From Azospirillaceae bacterium (GTDB taxonomy: Bacteria; Pseudomonadota; Alphaproteobacteria; Azospirillales; Azospirillaceae), in assembly GCA_031291675.1 (NCBI GenBank), contig JARLIO010000008.1, positions 1 through 63,682 of the forward strand: a stretch of DNA of 63,682 bases, written 5' to 3'. A program made the position numbers and the translations under genes. This document shows positions 19,422 through 26,409 of this stretch, piece by piece; the stretch's first letter is position 1; each line of letters opens with the position of its first letter. The notes under the pieces are model-generated. The model was given only the letters and a program-made list of their open reading frames with translations. It had not been told where the DNA came from and made no database searches.

Positions 19422-19583
19422 GGGGCCGGCGCGCATGGCGTCGTCGCCGGCAAGCCCCCCACTCACGCGCGTGACAATGCGCACAATCCGACCGATGAGG
19501 CGCTTGAACGGGCTTGCGGAGCCGACCCCGCACGGCGCGCGGAATGACGATTCTTCTGTTAAACCATGCAAATCCCGTTATTC

Positions 19584-19619
19584 TTCCCACAACACCCTGT
19601 GAATTTTCCAAAGTGGGAA
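19584..19619. promoter_or_regulatory. Inverted repeat abutting the start of the mos regulator
   Basis: TTCCCAC (19584-19590) and GTGGGAA (19613-19619) are perfect inverse copies separated by 22 bases. The second arm touches the ATG at 19620. A dyad here could be an autoregulatory operator. The function is inferred from position only. Confidence 0.35.
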
Positions 19620-20552
19620 ATGTCGGACTTTCTCACCACCCGCGAGCTTGCCGCCCTGCTCAGGGTCAAGGAGCGCAAAGTTTACGATCTGGTCGCGGCG
19701 GGAAGCTTGCCGGTTCGCCGCGTGACCGGAAAACTTCTGTTTCCCCGCGACGAAATCGAGATCTGGCTTGGCTCGCGGATCGAAGATGCTGCGGCCGTGC
19801 CGAATGCCGCGCCGAGTTTGGCCGGATCCGACACGCCCCGGCCCATGGTCGTGTCCGGGGGGCATGATCTGTTGCTGGAATGGGTGTTGCGGGAATCGCG
19901 CTCCGGCATTGCCGCATTTCTGGACGGTGCCCTCGACGGCCTTGATCGTGCCGCCAAAGGCGAGTGCGTCGCCGCCGGGCTGCACATTCCCGAAGGCGAT
20001 GGCTGGCCCGAAGGCGATGCTTGCCCCGAAGGCGATGACTGGAATGTCAATACGGTCGCCGAGCGGTTTGGCGACGCCCCGTGGGTTCTGATCGAGTGGG
20101 CACGGCGCACCCGTGGGTTGGTGATGCGAACCGATCTGGCGCGGCAACCTCGGTCGCTTCGCGAAACGCGGGGGTTGCGTTTCCGGGCGCGTCAGCCGGA
20201 AGCCGGCAGTGAATTGATTTTTGACAAGATCCTGGAACGGGAAAAGCTGAGGCGGGAGGATTTCACCTTCGCGGGCGTTGATCGATCGGAATCCGATCTC
20301 GCGCTGGCGATCGCGGCAAACCGGGCGGATGTCGGCCTGGGATTGGAAGCCGCGGCCCGGCAATTCGACCTCAATTTTTATCCTCTTGTCGTCGAACGGT
20401 TCGATTTGCTCATCTGGCGCAAGGCCTATTTCGATCGACAGTTCCAGATGTTCTTGAAGTTCTGCGGTTCGGCGGATTTCCGCCGGAAGGCGGAAGAACT
20501 TGGCGGATACGACATCTCCGGATTTGGGACCGTGCACTTCAACGGAAACTGA
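19620..20552 (+). CDS. HTH regulator with periplasmic-binding-like (PBP_like) ligand domain, putative molybdate sensor
   Basis: About 310 residues. Residues 1-53 form an excisionase/MerR-like helix-turn-helix (LTTRELAALLRVKERKVYDL, then GSLPVRRVTGKLLFPRDEIE). The rest is a cytoplasmic PBP_like domain related to molybdate and tungstate binding proteins: DLLLEWVLRESRSGIA, RARQPEAGSELIFDKIL, DLALAIAANRADVGLGLEAA and GGYDISGFGTVHFNG. Start ATG 19620 is favoured over 19566 because homology begins at SDFLTT. The gene lies 265 bp before mosB on the same strand, which makes it the likely regulator of molybdenum storage. Three copies of a PEGDxx unit interrupt the ligand domain at residues 124-141. 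Ligand identity is inferred. Confidence 0.8.
   Translation: MSDFLTTRELAALLRVKERKVYDLVAAGSLPVRRVTGKLLFPRDEIEIWLGSRIEDAAAVPNAAPSLAGSDTPRPMVVSGGHDLLLEWVLRESRSGIAAFLDGALDGLDRAAKGECVAAGLHIPEGDGWPEGDACPEGDDWNVNTVAERFGDAPWVLIEWARRTRGLVMRTDLARQPRSLRETRGLRFRARQPEAGSELIFDKILEREKLRREDFTFAGVDRSESDLALAIAANRADVGLGLEAAARQFDLNFYPLVVERFDLLIWRKAYFDRQFQMFLKFCGSADFRRKAEELGGYDISGFGTVHFNGN
19989..20042 (+). repeat. Three in-frame 18-bp repeats encoding PEGDxx
   Basis: Each unit starts CCCGAAGGCGATG, encoding PEGDGW, PEGDAC and PEGDDW in turn (19989-20006, 20007-20024, 20025-20042). It forms an acidic insertion in the ligand-binding domain of the mos regulator. Near-identical codons suggest recent slippage expansion, and repeat number may vary between strains. 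Confidence 0.9.
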
Positions 20553-20574
20553 GGCGCCGCCGATGGCGGCTTCA
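20548..20574 (+). terminator. Hairpin overlapping the stop of the mos regulator
   Basis: GCCGCC-GAT-GGCGGC (20556-20570) is a perfect stem with a three-base loop. Flanking ACTGA and TCAGT extend it, with small mismatches, across the TGA stop codon. No T-tract follows. It could end or attenuate transcription between the regulator and mosB. Confidence 0.5.
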
Positions 20575-20816
20575 GTCCCTGAGACGGTGTCCGTGGGTGC
20601 TGCTCGACCGCGGCCTTTCCGCCGCTATCGCGCGGGGTCGGGTTTTTGACAATCCGGCTTCCGGCCGCTGACAGGATGGGTGGGATTCTGCATTTTCCGC
20701 CCTTTTCCCCCGCGAAGTAAAAAATGCATAAATTCCCCATATTGTGAGATCATGCGATAAGCTGTACCCAGTAGAAATAAGACAAAGCAATGTCTTGAAA
20801 TGATGAAGGGGTCTCC

Positions 20817-21629
20817 ATGACCAGCACGACGACAGGGCTCGAGACGCTCCTGACACAGCGATCGCTGACGGACGCGCAGCTTCAGGCGGCGGCCGAGGCG
20901 GCGGCGGACTTCCGGATCCAGCCGGATGCGACGGTGATCAAGATCGGCGGGCAGAGCGTGATCGACCGGGGCCGGGCGGCCGTCTACCCGCTGGTGGACG
21001 AGATCGTCGCGGCGCGCAAGGATCACAAGCTGCTGATCGGGACCGGCGCCGGCACCCGGGCGCGGCACCTTTACTCAATCGCGGCGGGGCTTAACCTGCC
21101 GGCGGGCGTGCTCTCGCAGCTCGGCGCCTCGGTCGCTGATCAGAACGCCGCGATGCTGGGGCAGCTTCTCGCGAAGTACGGTATCTCGGTGGTTGAAGAC
21201 GCGGGATTCGCGGCGGTGCCGCTCTATCTCGCCGAGGTCAACGCCGTCATTTTCAGCGGCATGCCACCCTACAAGCTTTGGATCCGTCCCGCGGCCAATG
21301 GCGTCATTCCGCCCTACCGTACCGACGCCGGATGCTTCCTCGTTGCCGAGCATTTCGGCTGCAAGGCGATGATCTATGTGAAGGACGAAGACGGCCTCTA
21401 CACCGCGAACCCGAAAACCTCGAAAGACGCCACCTTCATTCCCAAGATCTCCGTCGACGAGATGAAGGCAAAGGGGCTGCACGATTCGATCCTCGAATTT
21501 CCGGTGCTCGATCTGCTCCAGGCGGCACGTCACGTTCATCAGGTCCAGGTCGTGAATGGTCTCGTCCCCGGCAATCTGACCCGCGCGCTCAATGGCGAGC
21601 ATGTCGGCACCATCATCACCGCGCGCTAG
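20817..21629 (+). CDS. mosB: Molybdenum storage protein beta subunit MosB
   Basis: A 270-residue amino-acid-kinase-fold protein. It matches the remembered Azotobacter vinelandii MosB sequence through most of its length: RSLTDAQLQAAAEAAADFRI, KIGGQSVIDRGRAAVYPLVD, LIGTGAGTRARHLYSIAAGL, GMPPYKLW and ILEFPVLDLLQ. Length equals that subunit. In A. vinelandii, MosA and MosB form an alpha3-beta3 cage that stores molybdate as polyoxometalate clusters in an ATP-dependent way; the relation to UMP kinase is structural only. It is followed 12 bp later by mosA. An AT-rich promoter region of about 200 bp lies upstream. Confidence 0.93.
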   Translation: MTSTTTGLETLLTQRSLTDAQLQAAAEAAADFRIQPDATVIKIGGQSVIDRGRAAVYPLVDEIVAARKDHKLLIGTGAGTRARHLYSIAAGLNLPAGVLSQLGASVADQNAAMLGQLLAKYGISVVEDAGFAAVPLYLAEVNAVIFSGMPPYKLWIRPAANGVIPPYRTDAGCFLVAEHFGCKAMIYVKDEDGLYTANPKTSKDATFIPKISVDEMKAKGLHDSILEFPVLDLLQAARHVHQVQVVNGLVPGNLTRALNGEHVGTIITAR

Positions 21630-21641
21630 AGGATCCTTGCC

Positions 21642-22475
21642 ATGCCCGAAACCAGCAACGACATCAAGCACCTCGCTTCGCCGCTCGCGCGCCAGACCCT
21701 CCTTGACGGCGGACTGACCCGCCCGGTCGCGGGCGTGCGCCCGATCCGCCTGCTTCCCTGGCTGCAAGTCGTGAAGATCGGCGGTCGCTCGATCATGGAT
21801 CGCGGCGCGGAGGCAATCCTCCCGATCGTGGACGAGCTTCGCAAGCTGCTGCCCGAGCACCGTCTGCTCATCCTGACCGGTGCCGGCATCCGTGCCCGCC
21901 ACGTCTACAGCGTCGGCCTTGACCTCGGCCTGCCGGTCGGGTCACTGGCGTCGCTCGCGGCGCGAGAGGCCGGCCAGAACGGCCACATCCTCGCGGCGCT
22001 GCTCGCATCGGAGGGTGTGTCCTATGTCGAGCACCCCACGATCGCAAACCAGCTCGCGATCCATCTCTCCGCGGCGCGTGCGGTTGTCGGAAGTGCCTTT
22101 CCGCCCTATCATCACCACGAGTTCCCGACCTCCCGCATTCCGCCTCACCGGGCCGACACCGGCGCGTTTCTGCTCGCCGACGCCCTGGGCGCGGCCGGTC
22201 TCACCATCGTCGAGGATGTCGATGGGGTCTACAGCACCGACCCCAAGGGCGCCGACGGTGAGCAGGCGCAGTTCATCCCCGAGACGGATGCCGCCGACCT
22301 GGTCAAATTCGAGAGCCCGCTGCCGTTCGACCGGGCGCTCCCTGAAGTCATGGCAAATGCGCGCCACATCGAGCGCGTGCAGATCGTGAACGGGCTTGTT
22401 CCGGGCCGGCTGACGGCCGCGCTGCGGGGCGAGCATGTCGGGACGATCATCCACACCGGCGCACGCCCGGTCTGA
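21642..22475 (+). CDS. mosA: Molybdenum storage protein alpha subunit MosA
   Basis: A 277-residue partner of MosB, recognised by near-identity to A. vinelandii Mos[72 protein letters not shown] and [18 protein letters not shown]. It keeps the histidine-rich loop PPYHHHEFP (His 157-159), which lies in the region that contacts the metal-oxide clusters in the known structure. Together with MosB it should form the cytoplasmic Mo/W storage cage. The gene ends directly before a perfect 34-bp palindrome. No nitrogenase or molybdate importer gene is in the window. Confidence 0.93.
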
Positions 22476-22479
22476 ACGC

Positions 22480-22513
22480 ACTCCCCCGGGGCCTGATCAG
22501 GCCCCGGGGGAGT
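22480..22513 (+). terminator. Perfect 34-bp palindrome after mosA
   Basis: The 17-base arm ACTCCCCCGGGGCCTGA is followed at once by its exact reverse complement. It starts five bases after the mosA stop. The stem is extremely GC-rich but has no T-tract behind it (GGTCGCTTTC follows). It probably ends the mos operon or protects its 3' end. It may also serve as terminator for the lrp gene that reads towards it from 22610. Confidence 0.7.
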
Positions 22514-22609: not shown

Positions 22610-23074
22610 TCACGGCGGGATCGGCAGCGCCGTGCTATCTTTGACCTGTTCCATCACGGCATAGGTGTGGGTTTCGCGGACGCCGGGCAGGGTCACCAGG
22701 GTATGGCCCAGGAAGTCGCGATAGGCCGTCATGTCGCTGACCCGGGCCTTGATCAGGTAGTCGAATCCCCCCGCAACCATATGGCATTCCTGGATCTCGG
22801 GCATTGTCAGCACGGCCGTCTTGAAGTGTTCGAACACGTCCGGGCTGGTGCGGTCGAGCACGACCTCGATGAACACGAGCAGGTTGCGTTCCAGCTTGGC
22901 GGGATCGAGCAGGGCGACATAGCCGCGGATATGGCCGGACCGCTCCAGACGGCGCACCCGGTCCAGGCAGGCGGGTGGGCTGAGATTGACGTGGCGCGCC
23001 AGCTCGACATTGGGGAGCCGGCCATCGGTCTGAAGCGCGCGCAGGATGGCGCGGTCGATGCGGTCAAGGTTCAT
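22610..23074 (-). CDS. putR: Lrp/AsnC family regulator, probable PutR
   Basis: A 154-residue regulator of standard Lrp length. The N-terminal HTH reads LDRIDRAILRALQTDGRL, NVELARHVNLSPPACLDRVR. The C-terminal RAM domain reads LVFIEVVLDRTSPDVFEHFK and GGFDYLIKARVSDM. It lies divergent from putA with 167 bp between start codons, the classic arrangement of the proline-responsive activator PutR in alphaproteobacteria. It should bind the shared intergenic region and activate putA when proline is present. The symbol rests on this context. Confidence 0.85.
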   Translation of the reverse strand: MNLDRIDRAILRALQTDGRLPNVELARHVNLSPPACLDRVRRLERSGHIRGYVALLDPAKLERNLLVFIEVVLDRTSPDVFEHFKTAVLTMPEIQECHMVAGGFDYLIKARVSDMTAYRDFLGHTLVTLPGVRETHTYAVMEQVKDSTALPIPP

Positions 23075-23241
23075 CGTCGTTCCGAATCAAATGAGGGCGT
23101 TGCTCTGATACCCTAAGGAAATTCGGTTGAGGAAGACAAGAACCAGATCCCATTCGGTCCATTTGACGTTAGCCTTCAGGATGATCGGTGGTCAGGGCCA
23201 ACGTCGGACGGAGGCCACCGCCCCAACGACGGAGAAATCTC

Positions 23242-26200
23242 GTGACTGTCCTGCTGCCGCCACCGTCCTTGACCCCGCGCGCCGCGATGGCCGCGAACAA
23301 TCTCGCCGACGAGGCCGTGTGCCTCGATGCCCTGGTTGCAATTGCGACCCTTCCGGCGGAACGTCAGGCGCGGGCCCAGCAACAGGCGGCGCGGCTGGTC
23401 GAAGGCGTCCGGTCGTCGCGGACCCGGTTTGGTCTGCTCGACGCGTTCCTGCAGGAATATGGCCTGTCGACCAAAGAGGGCGTTGCCCTGATGTGTCTGG
23501 CCGAGGCGCTGTTGCGGATCCCGGATGCGGCGACCGCCGACAGCCTGATCCGTGACAAGATCGGCAGCGCCGATTGGGATCGCCACCTGGGCCAGGGCGA
23601 GACGCTGTTCGTCAACGCCTCGACCTGGGCGCTGATGCTGACCGGGCGGGTGGTGCGCCTTGACGAGGCGGAACAGCCCTCATCCTTGATGGGGCGGCTG
23701 ATCGCACGGTCCGGGGCGCCGCTGATCCGTCAGGCCACAGTCCAGGCGATGAAGATCCTGGGCCGGCAATTCGTGATGGGACGTTCGATCGCTGAAGGCC
23801 TGGCGCGGGCGCGGGATTCAGAAAAGCACGGCTATCGCTATTCCTACGACATGCTGGGCGAGGCGGCACGAACCGCTGCCGATGGCGAGCGCTATCAGGA
23901 ATTGTATGGCATGGCGATCGACGCCATCGGTGCCGCGCGCGGATCGCGCGACGTCGTGTCGGGCCCCGGCATCTCGATCAAGCTGTCCGCGCTTTATCCG
24001 CGCTATGAGGTGGCCCAGCGGGAACGGGTGATGGCGGTGTTGTTGCCGCGTTTCAAGGCGCTGGCGTTGCGTGCCAAACAGGCGGGTATCGGCATGACCG
24101 TTGATGCCGAGGAGGCCGACCGGCTTGAACTCAGCCTCGATCTGTTCGAGGCGGTATGCGTCGATCCGGCGCTCGATGGCTGGGACGGTTTCGGGATCGC
24201 GATCCAGGCCTACCAGAAGCGCGCGATCCATGTTGTCGATTGGGTCGTCGATCTGGCGCGCCGGCAGCGCCGGCGGATGATGATCCGGCTGGTCAAGGGC
24301 GCCTATTGGGACAGCGAAATCAAGCGGGCGCAGGAGCGCGGCCTGCCGGGCTATCCGGTGTTCACCCGCAAGGCGTCGACGGATGTCTCGTACCTTGCCT
24401 GTGCGCGCCGGTTGCTGGCGGCACGCGACGTGATCTTCCCCATGTTCGCGACCCACAATGCCCAGACCGTCGCGACAGTAATCGAGATGTCGGCGGTCGA
24501 GATGGCGGCTCCGGGGCGTTTCGGCCGCGGCGAAGGCTTCGAGTTCCAGCGGTTGCACGGCATGGGGGAACCGCTCTACGACCAGATCGTCAAGGGCGAT
24601 GGTGGCACACCCGGATGCCGGGTCTACGCCCCGGTCGGCAGCCATGAAGATCTGTTGGCCTATCTGGTGCGCCGTCTGCTCGAGAACGGCGCCAACAGCA
24701 GTTTCGTCAACCGGATCCAGGATGAAAAGGTCCCGGTCGCCGAGATCGTCGCCGACCCGGTCGTGAGCACGGCAGCGCTTGCGGTCAAGTCCCATCCCCG
24801 AATCCCGCTGCCCCGCCAGCTTTATCCCGATCGGCTCAATTCCCAGGGCCTTGATCTCAGTGATCCCGGCGTCACCGGTCCGCTGCTGGAACAGATCGCC
24901 GCATTTGATCCGGCCGCGACACAAGCGGCGCCGATCATCGACGGTGTTGTGTTGTCCGGCCCTGACCGCCCGGTCGAGAATCCGGCCGACATCACGCGGA
25001 TTGTCGGGTCGGTTGTCGAGGCCAGCGCCGAACAGGTTGGCCAGGCCGTGGCGGCAGCGGTGCGCTCCTTCCGGGCCTGGACCGCGGTTCCGCCCCTGGC
25101 GCGCGCGGCAATCCTGGAGCGGGCTGCCGACTTGATCGAGGCGGAACGGGCCGCCCTGATGGCGTTGCTGGTCCGCGAGGCCGGCAAGTGCATCCCCGAT
25201 GCCCTGGCCGAGGTCCGCGAGGCCGCGGACTTCTGTCGCTATTACGCCTTGAGAACGCGAACCGATTTCGCCCAGCCGTTGCGGCTGGTGGGCCCGACCG
25301 GCGAAACCAATGACCTGCTGCTCGAAGGGCGCGGCGTTTTTGCCTGCATCAGTCCGTGGAATTTCCCACTGGCAATCTTTGTCGGGCAAATCGCGGCGGC
25401 GCTGGCCGCCGGCAACAGTGTCGTGGCCAAGCCGGCCGAGCAGACGCCGCTGATCGCGGCGTTCGCGGTCCGCCTGCTGCACCGGGCCGGGATCCCGCCC
25501 GGCGTGCTGCATCTGCTGCCGGGCGACGGGGAGAGCGTCGGCGCGCCGCTGGTCGCCGATCGCCGCCTGGCCGGCGTCGCTTTCACCGGTTCGACGGCGA
25601 CGGCCCGGGCGATCAATCGGGTTCTGGCGGCGCGCGAGGGCGCGATCATACCCCTGATCGCCGAGACCGGGGGACAGAATGTCATGATTGTCGATTCCAC
25701 CGCGCTGCCCGAGCAGGTGGTTGACGACGTCCTGACCAGTGCCTTCCGCTCGGCCGGGCAACGTTGTTCGGCGCTGCGGGTGCTGTTCTTGCCCGACGGT
25801 ACGGCCGACACCGTGATCCGGATGTTGCGCGGCGCCACCGCCGAACTTCGGCTTGGCGATCCCGGCCTGCTGGCGACCGATATCGGGCCGGTGATCGATC
25901 GGTCGGCTCATGCGGCGCTGCTGGCCCATGTCGCGCAGCTGCGCCAGCAGGCCAAGCCGCTCTTTGACCCGCCGCCGGCGGATGCGGCGGCCGCGCGGGG
26001 CTGGTTCGTGGCGCCGCAGGCCTTCGAGATCACCCGCCTCGATCAATTGGATCACGAAGTCTTCGGGCCGATTCTCCATATCATCCGCTATGGCAGCCAT
26101 CATTTGGACGCGGTTCTCGATTCGATTGCCGCGACGGGCTATGGCTTGACTCTGGGGATCCACACCCGGATCGACGCCACCGTGCGACAGATCGTCCCTC

Positions 26201-26409
26201 GCGTGCCGGTCGGCAATGTTTATGTCAACCGCAACATGATCGGCGCGGTTGTCGGGGTTCAACCGTTTGGCGGGCAGGGGTTGTCGGGTACCGGACCCAA
26301 GGCCGGGGGGCCGCGGACCTTGCTGCGTTATGCGACCGAACGGACGATCACCATCAATACCACCGCCGCCGGGGGTAATGCCGCGCTGGTCAGCATGGAT
26401 GAAACCTGA
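23242..26409 (+). CDS. putA: Bifunctional proline dehydrogenase / delta-1-pyrroline-5-carboxylate dehydrogenase
   Basis: About 1055 residues oxidising proline to glutamate. GTG 23242 is chosen, with GGAGA at 23231-23235 and a match to the family N-terminus; upstream codons give an arginine-rich non-homologous extension. The proline dehydrogenase barrel lies at about 130-460 (GPGISIKLSALYPRYE, RLVKGAYWDSEIKRAQ, ATHNAQTV, EFQRLHGMGE). The aldehyde dehydrogenase domain runs from about 540 to 1030 (FACISPWNFPLAIF, VAFTGSTATAR, AETGGQN with the general-base Glu, and catalytic Cys about 842 in SAGQRCSALR). No ribbon-helix-helix DNA-binding domain is present, so it is the non-repressor short form. 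Regulation is likely by the divergent Lrp protein. Confidence 0.96.
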   Translation: MTVLLPPPSLTPRAAMAANNLADEAVCLDALVAIATLPAERQARAQQQAARLVEGVRSSRTRFGLLDAFLQEYGLSTKEGVALMCLAEALLRIPDAATADSLIRDKIGSADWDRHLGQGETLFVNASTWALMLTGRVVRLDEAEQPSSLMGRLIARSGAPLIRQATVQAMKILGRQFVMGRSIAEGLARARDSEKHGYRYSYDMLGEAARTAADGERYQELYGMAIDAIGAARGSRDVVSGPGISIKLSALYPRYEVAQRERVMAVLLPRFKALALRAKQAGIGMTVDAEEADRLELSLDLFEAVCVDPALDGWDGFGIAIQAYQKRAIHVVDWVVDLARRQRRRMMIRLVKGAYWDSEIKRAQERGLPGYPVFTRKASTDVSYLACARRLLAARDVIFPMFATHNAQTVATVIEMSAVEMAAPGRFGRGEGFEFQRLHGMGEPLYDQIVKGDGGTPGCRVYAPVGSHEDLLAYLVRRLLENGANSSFVNRIQDEKVPVAEIVADPVVSTAALAVKSHPRIPLPRQLYPDRLNSQGLDLSDPGVTGPLLEQIAAFDPAATQAAPIIDGVVLSGPDRPVENPADITRIVGSVVEASAEQVGQAVAAAVRSFRAWTAVPPLARAAILERAADLIEAERAALMALLVREAGKCIPDALAEVREAADFCRYYALRTRTDFAQPLRLVGPTGETNDLLLEGRGVFACISPWNFPLAIFVGQIAAALAAGNSVVAKPAEQTPLIAAFAVRLLHRAGIPPGVLHLLPGDGESVGAPLVADRRLAGVAFTGSTATARAINRVLAAREGAIIPLIAETGGQNVMIVDSTALPEQVVDDVLTSAFRSAGQRCSALRVLFLPDGTADTVIRMLRGATAELRLGDPGLLATDIGPVIDRSAHAALLAHVAQLRQQAKPLFDPPPADAAAARGWFVAPQAFEITRLDQLDHEVFGPILHIIRYGSHHLDAVLDSIAATGYGLTLGIHTRIDATVRQIVPRVPVGNVYVNRNMIGAVVGVQPFGGQGLSGTGPKAGGPRTLLRYATERTITINTTAAGGNAALVSMDET

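Follow-up and report, generated by a model that had tools for sequence, protein, structure and literature searches.

The locus described here raises the question of whether a regulator gene lying just upstream of a bacterial molybdenum store controls that store, and in response to what. In the window, by which we mean the whole 63,682-bp stretch of DNA analysed, three genes follow one another on the forward strand: a regulator that we call MosR (19620..20552, 310 aa), mosB for the β subunit of the molybdenum storage protein MoSto (20817..21629) and mosA for its α subunit (21642..22475). Both subunits are full length and in tandem, with MosB residues 1–269 aligning to MoSto β (2ogx_B; E = 6e-152) and MosA residues 1–276 to MoSto α (2ogx_A; E = 2e-147), and they share 87% (mosB) and 83% (mosA) identity with the Azotobacter vinelandii locus (L043). 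The original prediction of these three genes on the plus strand, with near-complete resemblance to the Azotobacter subunits, was thus confirmed. Directly 3′ of mosA, reading of the sequence revealed a perfect 34-nt palindrome (22480..22513) that our feature scan of the window had missed; it may be a terminator, one lacking a T run. No Rfam family matched at its gathering score. Farther along (22610–26409), a gene of the Lrp/AsnC family and a putA-like gene for proline dehydrogenase/aldehyde dehydrogenase are divergently oriented, a layout known for PutR–PutA.

The original statement that MoSto has seldom been reported beyond a handful of nitrogen fixers is too strong. A scan of genome contigs returned 191 relatives of mosB. 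Within the window's order the gene was present in 24 of 82 genomes, that of the window included, but an even sampling of 385 genomes across the class yielded it in one, the window's own. With these counts, MoSto is patchy yet widely spread, occurring in Bradyrhizobium, Azospirillum, Zoogloea, methanotrophs and others. Database names hide it, because 8 of 10 plasmid mosB records (H31–H40, all ten from Azospirillum) are annotated as uridine or UMP kinase. Our comparison set comprised the best 80 of the 191 relatives, those most like the window's mosB, and mosA lay 3′ of mosB in all 80, cut by the contig end in one (L046). The window's own genome (G000; 5.87 Mb, 99 contigs) gave two NifH matches that exceed the family cut-off and one that falls slightly short of it, and the bacterium is a probable nitrogen fixer.

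The regulator stops 264 bp before the mosB start on the same strand. Its open reading frame (328 aa) opens at 19566; we preferred the start at 19620, giving a protein that begins MSDFLTT, because most aligned relatives begin near there and because two weak operator-like sites closely precede this position. Consistent with the predicted excisionase-like helix–turn–helix (HTH) and binding-protein-like domain, Pfam placed HTH_17 at residues 22–69 (3.9e-11) and PBP_like at residues 112–300 (1.2e-40) of the 328-aa frame, and the protein scored 36.5 bits on the TIGR01764 'excise' model (cut-off 28.8). These were the only Pfam domains up to an E value of 0.1, with no TOBE domain in MosR. This pairing of domains is described as canonical for TaoR in PMC11980592. 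By its domain architecture and gene neighbours, MosR is assigned as a TaoR-type one-component regulator. Within its sensor domain, three tandem 18-bp units (19992–20042) encode PEGDxx repeats that are missing from the five other members of its subclade (see below).

Most of the wider family keeps company with tungstate transport. Homologues of MosR (E ≤ 1e-30) occurred in 40 of the 385 class genomes, the window's own included, with all others at 53% identity or less. Wide neighbourhoods could be obtained for 34 of these 40 places, and 26 of the 34 held matches to tupA or tupB at 39% identity or more. Two bradyrhizobial homologues viewed in a wide neighbourhood (L160 and L161) both lay at tup, and six of eight plasmid loci carried either a permease–ATPase–binding-protein set or its binding protein (the latter in L131, at the record start), with formate dehydrogenase or MoeA genes also present in some; no transporter set stood beside the homologue in L128 and L135. 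All four transporter binding proteins tested had TupA (NF041772) as their best match, at 224–247 bits, under the cut-off of 400. No relatives of MosR were found in a scan of viral contigs. One reading of these neighbours is that MosR is an ordinary TaoR-type tungstate regulator which sits by chance next to mos and has its real targets elsewhere. The window genome itself argues against this, as it contained no TupA at E ≤ 1e-5, whereas four of four control genomes were positive; in the same kind of search, with the same result for the controls, one of the six genomes of the MosR subclade (G424) had TupA.

The mos genomes revealed a small set of closer relatives. A search of 79 of the 80 (the genome of L035 was left out) found regulators at 61–65% identity to MosR in five: two Methylosinus (G420 and G459), one Methylocystis (G398), one Methylocystaceae (G442) and a Beijerinckiaceae metagenome-assembled genome (G424, locus L083). 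The remaining mos genomes searched gave no match at E ≤ 1e-10, or one of at most 44% identity. The five and MosR group in a single clade (bootstrap/SH-aLRT 100/100) that branches from within the tup-linked regulators, in a tree from which one incomplete row (L182) was left out. Their neighbours differ: the regulator lies near modA in three of the six, and divergent from it (G420, G442 and G459), near mos in two (the window and G424) and near neither in G398. In both Methylosinus genomes, a gene for a TldD/PmbA-like metalloprotease comes after modA on the same strand (L156:7100-9670 in G420; L210:6124-8538 in G459).

Adjacency of regulator and mos is correspondingly rare, being found in 1 of the 80 other mos loci (best 80 of 191), namely L083, and in none of 23 other Azospirillales mos loci within the available flanks. 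A general three-gene order, as originally predicted, was therefore not borne out, and this rarity is the second point in favour of a tungstate regulator placed by chance. Near mos of Bradyrhizobium sp. BTAi1 lies a PBP_like regulator of another kind, a LysR-type protein with HTH_1 and PBP_like domains (L017:9344-10429) encoded on the same strand about 1.7 kb after mosA.

Evidence of a link came instead from the mosB promoter. A conserved box, CATATTGTGAG, lies 79 nt before the mosB start on the plus strand (20738..20748) and recurs before mosB in L018, L050, L071, L078 and L083, so that CATATTGYGRG, with at most one mismatch, is found 77–80 nt before mosB in six loci. Across the 78 mos loci with both kinds of data (the L035 genome was left out, and L034 and L057 had too little upstream DNA), presence of the box at −77 to −80 agreed with presence of a regulator of at least 61% identity in every case, six having both and 72 neither. 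The Fisher probability for this 6/0/0/72 table, 4e-9, overstates the independence of the loci, because the pattern was drawn after viewing the six promoters and because four of the six belong to one methanotroph clade. The regulators of L050 and L078 were, however, predicted from the promoter box before their genomes were searched; both were confirmed, and these were the only two of the 39 genomes then searched with a regulator above 55% identity. The prospective part of the test thus consists of two methanotrophs. The strong form of a regulator–mos module fails on the rarity of adjacency, but five other genomes of the subclade have the same mos box even where the genes lie apart. Together with the operator-like site before mosB described below, and with adjacency in a genome of another order, the co-occurring box upholds the proposed link between regulator and mos, and we regard it as probable that MosR is linked to mos. 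Co-occurrence of box and subclade also speaks against chance placement of a tungstate regulator.

The box contains a −35-like TTGTGA (20742–20747, plus strand), which emerged from the promoter comparison and is followed after 17 nt, counted by eye, by a −10-like TACCCA (20765..20770, plus strand); this spacing of 17 nt is shared by all six boxed promoters except L071, where it is 18 nt. From their sequence and spacing the two hexamers would form the core promoter of mosB, although a scan with the σ70 consensus did not recover TACCCA at 20765–20770. The box may itself be partly core promoter, because versions with two mismatches occur at −74 to −77 in L052, L054 and L233. Two loci with identical MosBA (L080 and L230) have a one-mismatch box at another distance, −146. 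In a quick mosBA tree the six boxed loci fall in three places, and the window groups with two Telmatospirillum loci (L004 and L006; SH-aLRT 85) that have neither box nor regulator. Mapping the box onto this tree requires three changes, which suggests repeated transfer of the box among mos lineages; a single origin is possible, because well-supported branches force only one change.

These features bear on a further explanation, that mosBA is expressed constitutively, as reported for A. vinelandii; the box would then be simply a core promoter shared within a single mos lineage, and MosR would control itself or modA. The box does hold −35/−10-like hexamers, other mos loci have partial boxes and a single origin is compatible with the mosBA tree; moreover, A. 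vinelandii MoSto levels were similar at all molybdenum levels tested (PMC6448029). That same paper indicates that the response of MoSto expression to molybdenum is disputed even in Azotobacter, with constitutive expression there and in one earlier report and absence of MoSto from Mo-free medium in another. Against constitutive expression, L004 and L006, the mos loci most closely related to the window's, lack the box, and a motif derived from tup promoters identifies an operator-like site that does not overlap the hexamers. On balance we consider this explanation unlikely.

That motif is a position weight matrix learned from 29 tupB upstream regions with no mos data; it spans 18 nt, is AT-rich around TGCA and reached a log-likelihood of 133, compared with 53 on shuffled letters. 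When the 63,682-bp window was scanned, the top match (18.2 bits; runner-up 10.4) was AAAAAATGCATAAATTCC at 20719..20736 on the plus strand, a putative operator of the regulator. Its centre falls some 50 bp upstream of the transcription start expected from TTGTGA-N17-TACCCA, a usual position for an activator. Two weaker sites on the minus strand before the regulator start (19559–19576 and 19590–19607; 9.9 and 8.9 bits) ranked fourth and ninth in the window and make self-regulation of MosR possible.

Applied to the mos promoters, the matrix scored the six boxed loci above the 73 others (Mann–Whitney p = 0.0002 raw and 0.0011 on shuffle z-scores), with p values from 6e-5 to 3e-3 across all six motif settings run (two promoter sets × three widths). 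Taken singly against dinucleotide shuffles, only the window (p = 0.005) and L083 (p = 0.010) of the six passed p ≤ 0.01, whereas the four methanotroph mos promoters gave p = 0.08–0.13 and were outranked by two loci outside the six (L009 and L012). The exact pattern AAAANRYGCATAAATTYC occurred once in the window genome and once in G424, both times before mosB. In the four methanotroph genomes the 18-bp pattern with up to two mismatches returned five matches, all on other contigs or at other places and none of them the mos site. In the window genome, two mismatches admitted seven further operator-like matches, compared with none for the reversed pattern. These seven, on C7, C22, C29, C57, C79, C84 and C87, are possible further targets; five open reading frames scanned near three of them included no molybdenum genes.

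The same matrix marked the modA-linked regulators. In G420, G442 and G459 the gap between modA and the regulator held the best match of each 13–20-kb locus (14.7 to 16.0 bits), with matches of 14.5 and 13.5 bits in L209 and L210 falling outside that gap, and in G421, where a more distant homologue lies beside modA, the gap again held the best match (14.1 bits; next 6.0). Upstream of modA, no site was seen for the two genes of the window genome (≤2.8 bits) or for that of G424 (1.3 bits); for modA of G398 the matrix reached 6.3 bits. Direct binding of MosR at 20719–20736 appears likely. The seven additional matches add to the case for a tungstate regulator with targets elsewhere, whereas the single exact occurrence of the pattern, before mosB, counts against it; taking in the rarity of adjacency, the tup-linked homologues, the missing TupA and the shared box, we judge that explanation to be very improbable.

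Some of the box-free mos loci carry a different motif. De novo motif search of the non-bradyrhizobial mos promoters outside the six (n = 51), with the last 45 nt masked, yielded CTttAtAaCGctaTg at a log-likelihood of 230, compared with 74 on shuffled letters; an unmasked search had returned the ribosome-binding region and was discarded. We take this motif to be a ModE-type site (ModE box). It exceeded 13 bits in 27 of the 73 other mos loci, including those of A. vinelandii, Azospirillum and Telmatospirillum (L004 and L006), and was absent before mosB in all six boxed loci (best 0.3 bits; window −1.8). Of the proposal that the locus is a self-contained module independent of ModE, independence is favoured by a mosB promoter without a ModE-box-like motif, but 'self-contained' is doubtful, because three methanotrophs keep the regulator by modA and because the window genome has, elsewhere, two modA genes over the cut-off and one ModE-like HTH (91 bits; cut-off 98.5).

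Substitutions in the sensor domain set the subclade apart. Numbered from the 19620 start, all six regulators have Gly81 and Ala104, where the 54 complete sequences among the 55 others (the incomplete L182 was left out) invariably have Ser and Ser or Thr, respectively; all six also have Glu198, mostly Gln in the others, and, in the HTH part, Leu30 and Val32, mostly Ile and Cys in the others. In TupA, according to PMC5517513, the Ser of the TTTS motif is directed at the metal site, on whose other side lie R118, T124 and D170. Profile alignment of the MosR sensor domain with hhalign was weak, TupA giving E = 0.001 at a probability of 21% and ModA aligning over just 65 C-terminal columns (E = 0.07). 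The TupA alignment put R191 on the arginine, S197 on the threonine of SGT and position 104 on a Thr, with G81 just outside the aligned stretch. A PDB search with a profile of 32 sensor domains gave nothing better than E = 0.03, and AlphaFold2 on MosR together with the L083 relative reached a mean pLDDT of 40, with only the HTH usable. Given these weak matches, the mapping onto known oxyanion-ligand residues is tentative. It would imply that the subclade has kept the arginine and lost two hydroxyls, since R191 aligns and Gly81 and Ala104 replace Ser or Ser/Thr. Loss of the two serines may weaken or alter ligand binding, and as a sequence trait it argues against simple tight oxyanion binding. 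It is no simple mark of a change from tungsten to molybdenum genes, because the homologue beside modA in G421 (L116) keeps both serines.

Taken together, our results point to the likely re-assignment of a TaoR-type regulator, with its operator, from tup to the MoSto genes mosBA. A subclade of a mostly tup-linked family would thereby have come to serve molybdenum through the MoSto operon and, in some methanotrophs, would also control modA. MosR would most likely bind 20719–20736, just upstream of the −35-like box, would activate mosBA when cell molybdate is plentiful and would act on itself through the sites near 19559–19607. The target mosBA is fairly well supported, whereas we infer the ligand and the regulatory sign. 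We favour molybdenum or tungsten as the signal with moderate confidence, and lean to a similar degree towards activation of mosBA rather than repression, a repressor being possible. If loss of the serines lowers or changes oxyanion affinity, storage would answer only to excess molybdenum. A bolder version, which we consider doubtful, holds that MosR is a re-tuned sensor (S81G, S104A and a gained E198) for high molybdenum only or for another ligand, such as a bound molybdenum species, and that regulator and operator were acquired jointly by more than one mos lineage, where they displaced control of the ModE type; storage rather than import would then be coupled to the metal state. The preferred reading, re-assignment of a TaoR-type regulator to mosBA, is testable, as it names a dedicated regulator and a precise predicted 18-bp site and has relatives in organisms such as Methylosinus sporium DSM 17706. 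If true, it would show that regulator families can replace one another in controlling a metal store whose own genes hardly change. In the literature searched, no title or abstract named a TaoR-type regulator of mos, with most subscription papers and the founding TaoR paper lying outside its scope.

Compared with known systems, MosR shares with the TaoR family its HTH and PBP-like domains and its link to tungsten or molybdenum genes. TaoR itself reportedly has an excisionase-related DNA-binding domain and is said to activate aor and repress tupABC (Rajeev et al. 2019, Environ Microbiol 21:784). The likely target of MosR, by contrast, is MoSto and not a tungsten-containing aldehyde oxidoreductase or tup, and, unlike TaoR-type homologues, its subclade has two sensor serines replaced, a trait of the subclade that is not known to define TaoR. 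With ModE it shares molybdenum-linked control of transcription but differs in its HTH and in having no TOBE domain, and the window mosB lacks the ModE-like motif. A. vinelandii (G408) has no MosR homologue at E ≤ 1e-10 and its mos promoter (L043), unlike the window's, carries the ModE-like motif, whereas the store itself (2ogx) is alike in both organisms, with both subunits present, mosB before mosA and the 87% and 83% identity given above.
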